53,088 nucleotides of DNA from Syntrophomonadaceae bacterium. Its GTDB lineage: Bacteria; Bacillota; Syntrophomonadia; Syntrophomonadales; Syntrophomonadaceae. Below, piece by piece: positions 14,806-27,566 of the stretch. The translations under genes were made by a program, and so were the position numbers. Every line of letters starts with the position of its first letter. Position 1 is the first letter of the stretch. The notes beneath the pieces are model-generated. The model made no database searches, had not been told where the DNA came from, and saw nothing but the letters and a program-made list of their open reading frames with translations. The DNA is taken from assembly GCA_028706315.1 (NCBI GenBank), contig JAQWBP010000011.1, positions 1-53,088 of the forward strand, in the 5' to 3' direction.

Positions 14806-15237
14806 CTAGTAGATAGTCAAGTTGGATGGATATACATAAATACGGCTGCTATCCTTTACGAAGTTGAAAATAATCATGTCTTGTAACAAATCGAAGGTTT
14901 TTTCTTTTTTCTCTTCATCAACAGATTCGTCCAGGAATAACTCGAATACGGATACAGGGGCCTCTAGCCAATTGAGTAGCTTGAGTTCCTGAAGTCCATC
15001 ATCCAGAAATTCTAGTTCCTCCAGTGGTATAGAAAAAGGTGCTCTAGTCTTGCTTTTAATATGAGATTCCAGCAAATTGATAAAATACTTAAGCTTTTTT
15101 TCCTTTTCTGCATTGATAGCATATTGAAATAACACATCATAAAGGTTCTGAACTACTATTATCGACGTAGTGGTAGGTAACAAGAGATGTTTTTCCTGTT
15201 TGATGAAATCAAGTCTGAATTTGGGGATTTCTTTCAA
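14806..15237 (-). CDS. Hypothetical protein
   Basis: About 143 residues, not recognised. I favour the TTG at 15237 (product begins MKEIPKF) because AGGGAG lies about 8 bases ahead; an upstream start would add 16 residues. It is mostly alpha-helical by composition, charged, with an acidic stretch around DESVDEEKKEKTFD, and has no signal peptide, membrane segment or metal motif. It is transcribed towards rubrerythrin with a gap of about 105 bases; no terminator was seen between them. Confidence 0.6.
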   Translation of the reverse strand: MKEIPKFRLDFIKQEKHLLLPTTTSIIVVQNLYDVLFQYAINAEKEKKLKYFINLLESHIKSKTRAPFSIPLEELEFLDDGLQELKLLNWLEAPVSVFELFLDESVDEEKKEKTFDLLQDMIIFNFVKDSSRIYVYPSNLTIY

Positions 15238-15413
15238 GAATATCACTCCCTGTACTTTCTTAATATTAAATTTTACCTGTTTCAAGTATTTTTAACAATA
15301 AAAGATTTATTATAATAAGCTCCGTAATTTCAGGTAAGTAAATTTATCAGTGCAATTTTGTATGTAAAACAGGTATATTTAATATAATAGCATTTTATAA
15401 AGATGGTGGGCTA

Positions 15414-21364: not shown

Positions 21365-21400
21365 TTTTTCTTCACTCGTAAAGTCGAGTATAAAGAAAAA
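21365..21400. terminator. Bidirectional terminator shared by the MarR gene and the membrane-protein operon
   Basis: TTTTTCTT (21365-21372) and ACTCG (21374-21378) pair with CGAGT (21385-21389) and AAGAAAAA (21393-21400). It gives T-rich ends on both strands and overlaps the last codons of the minus-strand gene. Confidence 0.7.
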
Positions 21401-23519
21401 GCGAAAATAAGTATAATGCTAATGCGGCGGCAGCAGTAATACCAGAATCGTTAAAAAGAACTGCGATTACCGATGCGGCTATAATTCCCTGTATGCCTTT
21501 ATAGACCAAGGGCGCATGAGCAAAAAATTGTTTTACAGGTTTTAAAGGTTTAAAGATAGAGTACGCGAACGAAAGCATTGCTAGCAGGAATATCCAACCC
21601 CACATAGTATAATTTATAATCCTAATATGCATTTGTATTTTTTTTGTTATAATATTTAAAATTTCTGTTGGACCACTATTTATAATCATTGTCATACTGC
21701 GCCCCAGATGTGACTGGAGTTGCGCTGGCTGGTTATAATCAATTATGGCCATGGTTCCTACTAGGATAACCGTCCCTAATATCAGATAAAGTATGGTTCT
21801 TAGGTGAATATTCTTTTTATTAAATTTGATGAAAGTGTAACCCAGGCCAAGACTAGCCGTTATTGTACCCCCAACATTTATTCCGAAAAGTGGATAAGCT
21901 ATTAGAAATATTACCGCACAGAATAGTAGTGCCGTAATAAAATATTTGTTTCTGGTTGATGTTTCATGCAAAAATATAGCTGCAAAGCAGATAGTTGCAC
22001 CTATCATCACCCCCATGTATTCATTTCCCAGACCATAATACCTTAAACCGCTGATTATGTTATAGCTCATTACCGAGTTTTTAACTAGGCCCAGGTTGGT
22101 TACCAGGTCTACAGCCAGAACCATGACAGTAGTTAACAGAATCGGCAGAATTGAGTTTATCTTAAATAATTTGCCGGTTATGAAACTGGCAAGGGCAATA
22201 ACCAAACTGAGTGTTACCGAAACAAGCATAAAAATATTACGATTAAGAAGTTCGGCATTTGCTATAAGTAAAAGACTCAAAGGTACTGCGAGAGTATAAA
22301 GTATGAGAAGTTGCGCTATTGTTTTAGCGTGCTTTTTTAATGTAAGTAATGTTGCAACAAGTAAAAATAGAAACACGAGACTAATGTGCATAATAATAAT
22401 TTGCTGCCGGTTGGCATAACTGAAAACTACCTTCCGGTTCAATTGTTGTAAGGTTTGGTAAGTATTAGAATCAGGTTGTACATAAAGAGGATCATTGATT
22501 TCCTGCGTAATACAGTGTAGTACTGAATTTTTCAGATCAGTACCTGCAATTATTCCGTTCCGATGTGTAGTGTAGCTTTTCAGGGTTCCTGTAAAGGCAG
22601 GTTTAACTACTATTATAGGTGTAAGCAGCGCACTTTGCATTTGCTCTAGCTTTGATGCGGTTGGACTTATTACATAAACGGCTGTGCTTCCTGTATGTAG
22701 CTGTGTTTGTATTTCTCGAATACACCCATCTATTTGCGCAAGAATGCGCTGGCGTTCTTGCTGGTACTTTGCCGGTGAGAACAGCCCGTACATTGAATCT
22801 AGCCTGCTTAAATCACCAAATTCGATTAGCATTACCTTACTTGCGGCAAGTTCCCTAGCCTGTACAGCTATCTGTGTATAGTCACTCCAATAGCCAGGTG
22901 GTAAAGAATTATCTATTCTAATAATTTCCTGCCCCACTACGCCTTTATCAACTATTCCTTGAGAATCCATTAATATCAGTGCTCCGGGACGGGAATAGTA
23001 ACCGGGTAGATCGGAGTTGCCAATAACTGCTGTCTTATAATCCATACTGTGGAGAGTGTTTCCCAACTGTCCGGGTTTACCAAGATTGCGCTGTTCATTA
23101 TTTTTAAGTATGGGGATAATACTATCGATTACAATATTGTCATTTGCCGGGTTTATCCCTGTATTACGATAAAATACGTCTCCTGCATTTGCACAGTTTA
23201 CTTTTTCATCAGCCCGGTAATTGAACTGAGCTTTACTACTGCTCACGACGTTTTGACCTGCGGAAATTGTTGAACAGACGTTTTTAGTAGTTCTCTCTCC
23301 TCCGGTTACTGTGTTTAAAAGACCCATAGCCGCCGAATCTTGTAACTGCCATAAGTAGGGGGTAGTTTTGGGGTTAATATCATTTAAACTGAGCTTATCA
23401 ATCATGTAAATAATTACCCGATCACAAGAAGATGAGGGCTCACTGTTAGCCGCAGATACGCTGACTGGTGATGATAAAATTATAAGTATTAACAATATAA
23501 CTGTAATCAGTTTTTTCAT
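21372..23519 (-). CDS. Membrane protein with degenerate alkaline-phosphatase-like ectodomain (copy 2)
   Basis: A 715-residue protein, paralog of its upstream neighbour. Order: signal peptide (LITVILLILIILSSPVSVSA), an extracytoplasmic domain to about residue 365 with an alkaline-phosphatase-superfamily look (VIIYMID strand, TTPYLWQL, later RNGIIAGTDLKNSV), then about ten to twelve membrane segments. The usual SDHG metal motif is replaced by SPTAS, so catalysis is doubtful. Conserved with the paralog: GNSD, GDLSRLDS, GLRYYGLGNEYMGV, PLFGINVGG and NDSGITAAA, all probably near or in the membrane. It follows the first copy by 14 bases with RBS AAGGACGG. Function unknown; a role in envelope glycopolymer or lipid handling is only a guess. 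Confidence 0.7.
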   Translation of the reverse strand: MKKLITVILLILIILSSPVSVSAANSEPSSSCDRVIIYMIDKLSLNDINPKTTPYLWQLQDSAAMGLLNTVTGGERTTKNVCSTISAGQNVVSSSKAQFNYRADEKVNCANAGDVFYRNTGINPANDNIVIDSIIPILKNNEQRNLGKPGQLGNTLHSMDYKTAVIGNSDLPGYYSRPGALILMDSQGIVDKGVVGQEIIRIDNSLPPGYWSDYTQIAVQARELAASKVMLIEFGDLSRLDSMYGLFSPAKYQQERQRILAQIDGCIREIQTQLHTGSTAVYVISPTASKLEQMQSALLTPIIVVKPAFTGTLKSYTTHRNGIIAGTDLKNSVLHCITQEINDPLYVQPDSNTYQTLQQLNRKVVFSYANRQQIIIMHISLVFLFLLVATLLTLKKHAKTIAQLLILYTLAVPLSLLLIANAELLNRNIFMLVSVTLSLVIALASFITGKLFKINSILPILLTTVMVLAVDLVTNLGLVKNSVMSYNIISGLRYYGLGNEYMGVMIGATICFAAIFLHETSTRNKYFITALLFCAVIFLIAYPLFGINVGGTITASLGLGYTFIKFNKKNIHLRTILYLILGTVILVGTMAIIDYNQPAQLQSHLGRSMTMIINSGPTEILNIITKKIQMHIRIINYTMWGWIFLLAMLSFAYSIFKPLKPVKQFFAHAPLVYKGIQGIIAASVIAVLFNDSGITAAAALALYLFSLFLYTRLYE

Positions 23520-23533
23520 GATTATATCCGTCC

Positions 23534-25759
23534 TTAATAATGGGATTTAGAATAGTACATGGCTAACCACAGGCAGCATATAGCATACAAGGTAATAAAG
23601 GCAGCAGCAATAACACCCGTATCATTTGCGATAAAGACAGTTATTGCTGTAATAAGTAATGCTCTTATGATTTTAGCAAACCGGGATTGCTCTACCGCTA
23701 TGCGCAGAAAACTACTCCGAGCGGAAAACCAGGACCACACAAGAATTATAATAGATAAAAGTAAAAATATACTCCAGCTAGAATGATAAACTGTGCCAGC
23801 CAGTATACCAAGTTTAGTTCGTATAATGGAAACGAAGATAGGAAAGCCGCCATTAAATAGCATGCTTATAGCTTTGCCGGCATGGGAAGGGGCTGTACTA
23901 AATAGTGCATCGAGTCTGGCTACAGTAAGCACACCAGCTATAGCAATTAAACCGATAATGACAAGAAGTTTCAAGTTTAGCTGTTTTTCCATTAGCACCA
24001 TTAAAAGTACTCCTGTGGCAACTATTGATGTAATGAGACCACCCACATTAGCCCCAAAATGTGGGTGACCGATAGCGGTAGCCATTATAATCATAGCTGT
24101 GGTTGCTATCAATATTTTTAAAATTAATTTCGTATGTATTCGGTCTGTAAGCAGAGAAATAAAAATAATTGTACTGGCAATTAATACTCCCATGTAATCG
24201 TTTCCGATGCCATAAAATCTCCCCCCAGCGATAGCATCGGAGCCCAGGGGAGATAACAACATAAGGCGAGAGCCAGTAAAAACGTCAAGAGTTAATAAGA
24301 CCATAGTAATACCTGTTAATAAAAGCAAACCATTAGCAGGTTCTTTAATTAAGTATGCGATTAAGCCTCCGATTAATGCAGATAAGAGTAAAGTGAGCAT
24401 AATGGAGAATGCTAATGATGCGTATCCGGTATAACTTATAAAGAGAAAAACTATAGGGATGCTAAGGGTAGAATAAATAACCGGATTAATTAACTTAACA
24501 AGTTTGTTATCATTTTTGATATAAGCGAAAAAACCTCCCAGTAATGTTAGCAGGGCCATAAGCATAAATGTATAATGTAAAGGATTTCGACTTTCTCGCA
24601 AATTCTTATAAAGCTTTAATTGGTTATTTAGTTTTTCCAGGCTATTATCAGTCTTTTTTATAGTTGTAATACCCGTATTAGCCGAACTAATCTGAAAATC
24701 AAAATAATTAAAGATGGCTGGTAGCAGGTCGGAGTTAGAGACCAGACCAGTACGCCTTGTCGTAGGAGATGTTAATAATCCTTCTTTTTCATGGGGAGTA
24801 TACATTATAATTGGGGTTAAACCCAGATTATTATCCATTAGCATTTCATTACTGGGGTTAGGCGTAAGAATTATCATCATAGTATTATTCATATTTACCC
24901 GAGATAGAATTTCACCTAGTAGCAAGTCATTTTTTTCTATCGCGTTTTTTCTATGCTGGGTGAGGATATTATCAGCACAATTTATTCGGCTTGATTCGAC
25001 CCTGGTAGTATCCCCGGGGTCGACAACCAGGATATCAGCAGAATCTAATAAAGTGTCAAACTTCTGAAGAATTTGTTTATGATCGGCACGTACACCACCT
25101 GGGTGGGTGGGATCTGTTGTCAGTAAATCTTTACTTACATAACCTATAGGGGTAGAACCATTCTCGTCCATGGTCAGGAGAGCAGCATTCCTGTTAATAG
25201 AATATAAAGAATCAGCATTACCCAGGACTGCAATAGTTAGTCCCATTTCACGGGCCCAAGAACCTATTTGGCCAATTTGATAAACAGGGTTGTAGCTTGA
25301 GGAAATTTTCTTTAACTGTTCAGTATAAATATTTACGACTCCATGATCTGGATACGATTTACCGGTAAAAAGGGCATAAAACTCACCACCTTTAATGGTG
25401 GAATCTTTCGTGGTAAAGATTCCTGGTAGCTCATTTACGATCTCATCACTATTATAGGATAGGGCTGCATTGGCGATAGTCCCAACTCTAGCTCCGGCTG
25501 AAAGTGACATATATGCGCTAGAGGGGTTCATGTTTTTGGCCCGGACATTCATTAACCCGGTTCCGCTTTGTTTAATCAATTTATCAAGATTAGGAGTGTC
25601 TGCATGGATAATATCAGAGACATCAACATAATCCATAATATAGAGAACTACTTTAGTCTCTCCGTCACTGGCCAGAGCTGGCTGGATTACAAAAATATTA
25701 TGTATTATAAAAGACATTAAAAATACAACTATAAAGGCACTTAATTTTTTATAATTCAT
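23534..25759 (-). CDS. Membrane protein with degenerate alkaline-phosphatase-like ectodomain (copy 1)
   Basis: A 741-residue protein, first gene of a two-gene operon. A signal peptide ends near ALASDGE. The ectodomain (to about residue 395) shows superfamily marks VVLYIMD, TPNLDKL (as in sulfatases) and RRTGLVSNSDLLPAIFNYF, equivalent to the usual DLAPT segment. Where SDHG should be it has TPNPS, and the final His is missing, so metal binding looks lost. The membrane half has GRFYGIGNDYMGV, HFGANVGG and NDTGVIAAA, shared with copy 2. RBS AGGGGGAT precedes the ATG. Divergent from speD. No function can be assigned from the sequence. Confidence 0.7.
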   Translation of the reverse strand: MNYKKLSAFIVVFLMSFIIHNIFVIQPALASDGETKVVLYIMDYVDVSDIIHADTPNLDKLIKQSGTGLMNVRAKNMNPSSAYMSLSAGARVGTIANAALSYNSDEIVNELPGIFTTKDSTIKGGEFYALFTGKSYPDHGVVNIYTEQLKKISSSYNPVYQIGQIGSWAREMGLTIAVLGNADSLYSINRNAALLTMDENGSTPIGYVSKDLLTTDPTHPGGVRADHKQILQKFDTLLDSADILVVDPGDTTRVESSRINCADNILTQHRKNAIEKNDLLLGEILSRVNMNNTMMIILTPNPSNEMLMDNNLGLTPIIMYTPHEKEGLLTSPTTRRTGLVSNSDLLPAIFNYFDFQISSANTGITTIKKTDNSLEKLNNQLKLYKNLRESRNPLHYTFMLMALLTLLGGFFAYIKNDNKLVKLINPVIYSTLSIPIVFLFISYTGYASLAFSIMLTLLLSALIGGLIAYLIKEPANGLLLLTGITMVLLTLDVFTGSRLMLLSPLGSDAIAGGRFYGIGNDYMGVLIASTIIFISLLTDRIHTKLILKILIATTAMIIMATAIGHPHFGANVGGLITSIVATGVLLMVLMEKQLNLKLLVIIGLIAIAGVLTVARLDALFSTAPSHAGKAISMLFNGGFPIFVSIIRTKLGILAGTVYHSSWSIFLLLSIIILVWSWFSARSSFLRIAVEQSRFAKIIRALLITAITVFIANDTGVIAAAFITLYAICCLWLAMYYSKSHY

Positions 25760-25944
25760 TAACGATATCCCCCTGATGTATTAGCTAATATTTTAGTTGC
25801 CAGGTATTTACCTTTTTTTGTAGAATAAAATTCTAAGGAGTTTTTAAAATTGACAATCAGTTTTCTAGTTTGGTGCATATCATTATTATACGAAGCAACA
25901 TAGATAATACCAAAATTATTATTCATTAAAAATAAGGTTAATAA

Positions 25945-26813: not shown

Positions 26814-27566
26814 ATGGAATTTGTTTTTACCAGGGAGTATCAGTCAGAACTTGGTGCTGTGGACAAAGTGTTTGAGAATGGTTTAAGACCCTGGTTGGAT
26901 GATGTCTATAGTGATTTATGCGAATTAGAAAATGATAATACCTGGAAAAACCTTCCCGGATTAGTACTTTGTATATACGGGTATGTTGGATTAAACAGAC
27001 AACTCGCAATTATTATGGCTGATATTTTTAAAACGGCCTATTTTGCCAACTTCATTCATGAGTGGGTTAAAGATGTTGAAGAAGGGCAGGAGCATAATCA
27101 GGAAATGCAGTTTAAAATACTAATTGGCGATTATGCATTTGGGCGGATTTTAAAGCTGCTGGTAGAGGTGAAGGCGGATTGCCTGCTAAAATATTTTGCG
27201 AGTATGATGTCGGAAATAAATGAAGGCATGGTTATAAAATATAAATTAGACGCCGGATACCATCATACTATTCGTAAGACTAAAGCTCCCCTTTATGCTA
27301 CAGCTTTCCTTACTGCTGCTCATCTAGCCAGGACTGATGAAGTAGGAAGGGAACTGTATCGGCAGATGGGTTACAATATAGGGATGGCAATTGAATTAAT
27401 GAGTAATCCCAGACTTAGACCAGAAGCTCAGGTTTATGTGCATAAAAGCGAAGAGATATTTGAGCAGCTTAACCAGCAAAATAAAGTTTTAAATAGTAAT
27501 TTGGAACAAGTTATTAAAGAACTACACGGTATCCTTTGTACTGAGGATGATATTGCGGTAGTTTAA
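26814..27566 (+). CDS. Polyprenyl-synthase-like protein without catalytic aspartate motifs
   Basis: A 250-residue helical protein that aligns by eye with trans-prenyl diphosphate synthases: LIGDYAFGRILKLLVE (their GDYL/FARA helix), INEGMVIKY (EGE region), YHHTIRKTKAPLYATAF (the IxxKTA helix) and YNIGMAIEL (LGxAFQ helix). Both DDxxD motifs are missing; AIELMSNPRL stands where the second one would be. It therefore resembles the non-catalytic small subunit of a heterodimeric heptaprenyl synthase (HepS-like) and could pair with the catalytic subunit at 30575. It heads the menaquinone gene run, 34 bases before the ubiD-type gene. Confidence 0.6.
   Translation: MEFVFTREYQSELGAVDKVFENGLRPWLDDVYSDLCELENDNTWKNLPGLVLCIYGYVGLNRQLAIIMADIFKTAYFANFIHEWVKDVEEGQEHNQEMQFKILIGDYAFGRILKLLVEVKADCLLKYFASMMSEINEGMVIKYKLDAGYHHTIRKTKAPLYATAFLTAAHLARTDEVGRELYRQMGYNIGMAIELMSNPRLRPEAQVYVHKSEEIFEQLNQQNKVLNSNLEQVIKELHGILCTEDDIAVV

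Follow-up and report, generated by a model that had tools for sequence, protein, structure and literature searches.

Paired membrane proteins with pseudo-alkaline-phosphatase ectodomains in a Syntrophomonadaceae bacterium belong to a large family with invariant residues on the predicted outer face

Results

Two adjacent paralogs occupy the locus

The stretch of DNA analysed here (contig JAQWBP010000011.1 of assembly GCA_028706315.1, positions 1 to 53,088, from a Syntrophomonadaceae bacterium; 53,088 nt, hereafter the window) carries two adjacent, co-oriented genes on the reverse strand, on which all features of the pair described below also lie. P1 (23,534–25,759) encodes a protein of 741 residues that joins a signal peptide, a pseudo-alkaline-phosphatase ectodomain and a domain of 11 transmembrane (TM) helices, as read from the ORF and an AlphaFold2 (AF2) model. 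P2 (21,372–23,519) encodes 715 residues of like architecture and is placed by alignment and phylogeny as an ancient paralog of P1. A gap of 14 nt separates the genes, and their products align over 696 columns at 24% identity (176 bits), which makes them paralogous over their full length. The ORF coordinates agree with a first-pass annotation, made from the sequence alone, that had described two ORFs of these lengths here. The P1 signal peptide spans residues 1–31 (25,667–25,759), with a modelled helix at residues 3–23 followed by PALAS; the ALA-type cleavage site was placed by inspection. Since the P1 stop codon overlaps a putative ribosome-binding motif of P2 (AAGGA, 23,531–23,535), and another putative motif precedes P1 (AGGGGGA, 25,768–25,774), we read the pair as a probable single translation-coupled unit.

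A convergent gene for a MarR regulator lies on the left of the pair, and speD and a menaquinone/polyprenyl cluster lie divergently on the right. A divergent HEPPP_synt_1-like protein, scoring under the Pfam cut-off (26,814–27,566), heads the ubiD-ubiA-ubiX-polyprenyl synthase cluster. Elsewhere in the window, positions 14,806–15,285 encode a conserved 159-residue protein without a Pfam match, which is found in ten compared neighbourhoods (cluster C21).

The ectodomain has a phosphatase fold and has lost the phosphatase site

The AF2 model of P1, built with 88 homologs, has a mean pLDDT of 93.5 and a pTM of 0.91, with pLDDT mostly above 95 in the ectodomain (residues 33–370; 24,650–25,663); the high two-domain pTM suggests that the ectodomain is held fixed on the membrane domain. 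The ectodomain adopts the alpha/beta phosphatase-type fold of the alkaline phosphatase superfamily. All 26 Foldseek matches in the PDB at E ≤ 0.001 are hydrolases, mutases or pseudo-hydrolases of this superfamily; those at probability 1.00 comprise PH0037 (E = 4.9e-7), NPP3, ENPP7, LtaP (4uop, E = 2.1e-4), PbgA/YejM, iPGM and sulfatases. The superfamily assignment, originally drawn from sequence motifs, is therefore borne out by the fold, although only some of the motifs quoted for both proteins hold: TPNLDKL and SNSDLLPAI are present in P1, but P2 has AGTDLKNSV in place of the latter. The nearest sequence profile to the ectodomain is that of iPGM/ApgM, with which it has in common the tail D-iapT-ilxxlgi--Pe-mtG. 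However, iPGM/ApgM is a soluble, active two-metal mutase, whereas in the present family the ligands and the nucleophile are gone and a membrane domain is fused.

Of the two-metal site of the superfamily (Asp, Asp-His (DHG), Asp...His, His), only D250 is invariant and D43 is partly kept. Aligning profiles with solved iPGMs, and with the iPGM encoded by the window's genome, puts TPNPS of P1 (residues 299–303; 24,851–24,865) at the metal-binding DHG, and sequence alignment puts SPTAS of P2 (residues 285–289; 22,653–22,667) there too, in agreement with the first-pass observation that SDHG is replaced in both proteins, and the change from DHG to P-x-P/S is family-wide. At the place of the iPGM motif NPDMVGH, located by inspection, P1 has GDTTR (residues 249–253; 25,001–25,015), where the metal-binding His is absent: D250 is identical in 115 of 115 aligned members and R253 in 114, and at position 254, where iPGM carries its metal His, V, L, I or A predominates. 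Across the 115 members, the ectodomain contains no conserved His. D43 is Asp in all 26 proteins of the P1 and P2 clades, and roughly one in four of the other members has a different residue there (mostly N, some S or P). Column 79 (P79 in P1), assigned to the iPGM nucleophile Ser by a motif register set by inspection (NSEVGHLNMGSGR in the own-genome iPGM), holds P, T, S or E with an entropy of 3.26 bits over 115 members, and the family lacks the Ser/Thr (or formylglycine) nucleophile. The proposed loss of catalysis is consistent with these alignments, in which the metal site is lost across the 115 homologs. Judged from the alignments, the loss is ancestral and family-wide and no special trait of P1 and P2; an origin specific to the pair is ruled out by its span over the whole family. 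On the same loss of ligands in 115 proteins we rejected an active phosphatase and an active LtaS-like or PIG-N-like enzyme. The ectodomain nevertheless has its own near-invariant polar residues (D183, R190, R253, T334 and R336), which would fit a charged pocket that binds an anionic ligand without metal.

Invariant residues of the membrane half lie on the predicted outer face

The P1 membrane domain (residues 374–741; 23,537–24,640), modelled alone, has a pLDDT of 93.8 and a pTM of 0.93. It consists of 11 TM helices and two interfacial helices on the outer face (residues 626–637 and 639–659) that are low in hydrophobicity (mean KD 0.10 and 0.49), in keeping with the 10–12 spans originally counted behind a signal peptide and ectodomain. 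By alignment to P1, the membrane domain of P2 (21,375–22,460) has a like fold.

Ten residues (R514, G517, N520, G524, G569, H626, K649, N712, D713 and G715) are identical in 115 of 115 members, and on this conservation the motifs that contain them are not due to chance. Four lie in the loop between TM4 and TM5 (P1 residues 503–524, SPLGSDAIAGGRFYGIGNDYMG; 24,188–24,253), which corresponds to P2 residues 482–503 (22,011–22,076) with the invariant R493 and N499. The loop between TM6 and TM7 (P1 residues 565–575, HPHFGANVGGL; 24,035–24,067) holds G569 and the near-invariant P566 (113 of 115); H626 and K649 belong to the interfacial segment (P1 residues 621–660; 23,780–23,899); and the last three form NDTG at the outer end between TM11 and TM12 (P1 residues 712–715; 23,615–23,626), with NDSG in P2 (residues 690–693; 21,441–21,452). 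All the membrane motifs first reported as common to both proteins are present (YGIGNDYMGV/YGLGNEYMGV, FGANVGG/FGINVGG and NDTG/NDSG in P1/P2). As both proteins retain the invariant residues, neither is a degenerate partner.

Loops 1/2, 3/4, 5/6, 7/8 and 10/11 are rich in Lys and Arg (mean 1.9–3.5 K+R over 115 members), and loops 2/3, 6/7, 9a/9b and 11/12 are poor in them (mean 0–0.6). Under the positive-inside rule, these charges place the invariant residues on the outer face, on the side of the ectodomain: R514-Y516-G517-N520-D/E521 in loop 4/5, P566-G569-G574 in loop 6/7, H626 and K649 in the interfacial segment and N712-D713-G715 in loop 11/12. The inner loops are variable across the 115 members. 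The polar residues that both proteins share in the membrane domain thus belong to the extracytoplasmic surface rather than to mid-membrane, which points to an active or binding site on the outer face in preference to a channel-like path.

No significant match to the membrane half was returned by Foldseek against 350,542 PDB chains (best E = 0.19, to FtsW, with a TM-score of about 0.3; ArnT and RodA, further down the list, are likewise not significant) or by a search of a viral structure library. The suggestion that function sits in the membrane half is in line with the invariant residues found there and with the lack of a characterised transporter or ligase among its profile and fold matches.

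The pair belongs to a large family that usually occurs as a single gene

P1 and P2 belong to a single large, undescribed envelope-protein family of anaerobic Bacillota and some Actinomycetota. Homologs occur in 194 of 299 sampled genomes of the phylum, a few of these being marginal matches, in 33 of 41 relatives, and in at least 522 stretches of named genomes, with Thermoanaerobacter, Caldanaerobacter, Carboxydothermus, Desulfofundulus, Alkaliphilus and Tissierella among the hosts; outside Bacillota, the family is carried by several Actinomycetota and one Armatimonadota bin. Neither P1 nor P2 scores over a Pfam or NCBIfam cut-off. A comparison of 31 members with Pfam gave stray weak matches, of which the informative ones are to domains of the phosphatase superfamily (SGSH_C and Metalloenzyme), and a PDB sequence search found nothing with P1 or with a profile of the membrane half. 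Nor did we find a pseudo-alkaline-phosphatase multi-pass protein in the open-access literature. These results uphold the initial impression of a system without a description in Pfam, NCBIfam, the PDB and open-access papers, which is the scope of our search; the family may have a name elsewhere.

On the family tree, the P1 clade stands beside proteins of Tissierella and Thermincola and near several from Actinomycetota, and P2 falls in another clade, within the Bacillota majority. Their positions in distant clades led us to reject the view that the pair arose by local duplication, and mark P1 and P2, as far as the tree tells, as ancient paralogs. The slot alaS-ireB-X-AKR-ruvX holds a P1-side protein in Tissierella praeacuta (L072, 7842–10121) and the other paralog type in Alkaliphilus and relatives, which looks like a displacement within the locus or an artefact of the tree.

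Most relatives have a single family gene at the locus; in Tissierella and Actinomycetota this lone gene encodes a P1-side protein. P1 and P2 could on this evidence be independent single-chain enzymes kept adjacent by co-expression, an arrangement compatible with any mechanism. Against such independence, in-frame fusions of P1 and P2 occur in Syntrophomonas wolfei subsp. methylbutyratica (L069, 7923–12365; 1480 residues) and in a second Syntrophomonas-type single-contig genome (G020; L036, 7285–11751; 1488 residues), the P1 stop overlaps the putative ribosome-binding motif of P2, and both types cluster repeatedly: at three Thermincola-type loci they lie a few kb apart, with a glycosyltransferase or deacetylase gene between or near them. 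We therefore consider independence rather unlikely. Given the fusion and the clustering of both types, joint action of P1 and P2, probably as a heteromer, is likely in Syntrophomonas and Thermincola-type lineages. The heteromeric complex suggested in the first-pass annotation hence stands as likely for the present lineage, but a pair is not the usual form of the family.

A GT4 glycosyltransferase adjoins about a third of the loci

The annotation had called for a survey of gene neighbourhoods for constant partners. The commonest neighbour is a GT4 glycosyltransferase, found at 34 of about 100 loci; among the 111 members that could be scored, 33 have it right next to them on the same strand, 19 upstream and 14 downstream. 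Parsimony requires at least 8–9 changes of this adjacency on the tree, so inheritance of one ancestral arrangement does not account for the GT4 link. Twenty of the neighbouring GT4 proteins align as one subfamily that starts with R-x-x-x-G-G-M-x-x-H (R, GG and H invariant, M nearly so) and that has no NCBIfam equivalog over the cut-off. The subfamily accompanies single-copy members, for example at L047 (7627–8772), L086 (6613–7830) and L092 (10157–11281). The genome of the window has five GT4 hits, none of which adjoins the pair; we rejected a GT4 partner among the five, as the R-x-x-x-GGM-x-x-H start is missing from all of them.

The survey thus yields a recurrent partner at about a third of the loci, but the rest have mostly housekeeping neighbours. 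Such neighbours (alaS-ireB-ruvX, parA-parB and speD, with gene names assigned by sequence inspection) are present at about two thirds of the loci. With X as the family member, the contexts include alaS-ireB-X-aldo/keto reductase-ruvX, spoIIP-X-GT-lepA and X-speD, and, in Actinomycetota, parA-parB-X-ytxH-ddl; speD lies near the membrane-protein genes at 28 of about 100 loci. Some lineages also have neighbouring genes that, by inspection of their sequences, encode a polysaccharide deacetylase, a D-Ala-D-Ala ligase and a protein that binds peptidoglycan.

Discussion

The many TM helices, invariant residues on the predicted outer face, among them basic residues with His and Asp, a long outer segment towards the C-terminus and an adjacent glycosyltransferase gene lead us to read the family, tentatively and at somewhat less than an even chance, as a transferase or polymerase that works at the outer face on a lipid-linked glycan or glycolipid and uses the dead phosphatase domain as a substrate lid. 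In GT-C enzymes that use sugar diphospholipids, the conserved residues are all on the outer face; clans GT-C1 and GT-C2 have a long extracellular loop with conserved residues near the C-terminus; and in enzymes that use lipid-PP-sugars, two Arg residues hold the diphosphate while His, Asp or Glu activates the acceptor (PMC10920833). WaaL (GT121), SEDS (GT119) and Wzy-type proteins, with 8–14 TM helices, conserved outer residues including Arg and His/Asp/Glu, and an extended outer segment close to the C-terminus (PMC10920833), resemble the present family in these respects. R514, N520, H626, K649 and D713 have a like outer placement and are identical in all 115 members, their roles being predicted ones. 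The family differs from these enzymes in its invariant NDxG and YGxGN motifs and its fused pseudo-phosphatase domain, and sequence or fold homology to known GT-C families was not detected, with no GT Pfam hit in 31 members and Foldseek E-values of at least 0.19. Among GT-C enzymes as diverse as these, absence of similarity is weak evidence. The housekeeping neighbours at about two thirds of the loci, and the lack of the linked GT4 start among the five hits in the window's own genome, also speak against this reading. By eye, RYYG-GN resembles the R..G.f.NPN of O-antigen ligases, but we rejected homology to O-antigen ligase/Wzy and to SEDS proteins as candidates, with hhalign probabilities of 0.8% against Wzy_C and 0.3% against SEDS. 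A reversed Wzy alignment, run as a control, scored 99%, which indicates that hydrophobic composition dominates the hhalign scores and makes such multi-TM profile scores unusable for or against homology.

The substrate, catalysis and complex that we infer would be as follows. The GT4 enzyme would make a lipid-linked glycan or glycolipid on the inner face, and the ectodomain, lacking metal site and nucleophile, would act as a rigid lid that binds the phosphate-bearing lipid-linked substrate. An outer site that the loops TM4/5, TM6/7 and TM11/12 form together with the interfacial segment, with R514, N520, D/E521, H626, K649, N712 and D713, would then receive it: the Arg and Lys may grip the (di)phosphate of the lipid-linked glycan or glycolipid and a His or Asp may activate the acceptor, so that a unit is transferred or polymerised outside in the manner of an O-antigen ligase or polysaccharide polymerase. 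The two ancient paralogs would cooperate in Syntrophomonadaceae, probably as a heteromer.

Pseudo-phosphatase domains on membrane anchors are already known from PbgA/YejM, and the family may be compared with PbgA/YejM/LapC, in which an outer domain of alkaline-phosphatase fold, its catalytic residues reportedly lost or misplaced, is joined to a membrane domain. A PbgA/YejM-like sensor, whose ectodomain would bind an envelope lipid and whose membrane half would signal to a partner such that the GT4 or another envelope enzyme is regulated, would explain the near-invariant polar residues of the ectodomain and would agree with the significant Foldseek matches to PbgA/YejM structures (6xlp and 6vat). 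However, the membrane part of PbgA is small, N-terminal and of five TM helices, whereas the present one is C-terminal, has 11 TM helices and carries invariant outer residues of its own; the five-helix LapB-contacting domain has no counterpart here, and 6xlp is not among the best 50 matches of the membrane half. YejM regulates LPS in Gram-negatives, whereas the hosts of the family are mostly Bacillota. An outer face with some ten invariant residues, His, Lys, Arg and Asp among them, is also more typical of an enzyme, and the status of YejM itself is disputed, as it has been described as a metal-bound phosphatase (PMC7576196). On balance, a sensor seems unlikely to us. Slightly more improbable is a flippase or transporter of (glyco)lipids, with a GT4 enzyme making the lipid inside, the 11-TM half moving it and the ectodomain receiving it. 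It agrees with the GT4 neighbour and the outer receiving domain, and single-copy proteins beside glycosyltransferase genes are a common layout for flippases, but the invariant residues are grouped on the outer face and trace no trans-membrane path, the inner loops are variable, and MurJ, Wzx and other flippase folds are absent from the top Foldseek hits.

A transferase of ethanolamine phosphate or glycerol phosphate, of PIG-N/O/G- or LtaS-like type with an unusual or reduced metal site, is very improbable. The family resembles LtaS/LtaP and EptA/MCR in fold, as the LtaP match indicates, and in its location in the envelope, and it resembles PIG-N/PIG-O/PIG-G in the order of an N-terminal anchor, a phosphatase-fold domain and many TM helices. 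However, LtaS/LtaP and EptA/MCR have the reverse domain order and retain the metal site and a Thr nucleophile, the metal site of PIG-N/PIG-O/PIG-G is active, and none of the latter is among the best 50 Foldseek matches of the ectodomain. The random nucleophile column, the lost DHG pair, the lack of a conserved ectodomain His and the variable D43 outside the P1 and P2 clades also argue against such chemistry.

We know of no other pseudo-phosphatase joined to a domain of 11 TM helices that carries an invariant outer-face site of its own. The outer-face transferase or polymerase that we favour could, in its strongest form, represent a new class of outer-face enzyme with an unrepresented membrane fold and a dead-phosphatase cap, making an as yet undescribed envelope glycopolymer or glycolipid of anaerobic Bacillota and working mostly as a single chain, with an obligate two-paralog complex in Syntrophomonadaceae; this fuller version we regard as doubtful. 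About two thirds of the sampled genomes in a major bacterial phylum carry a protein for which the libraries searched have no model, and PDB profile and fold searches found no solved structure like its membrane half. The GT4 partner and the few invariant residues make the idea directly testable. If true, it would provide a clear case in which a phosphatase domain has become a binding lid. If the family assembles an envelope glycan, it would point to a step, and perhaps also a polymer, that is missing from the present picture of the envelope in anaerobic Bacillota.
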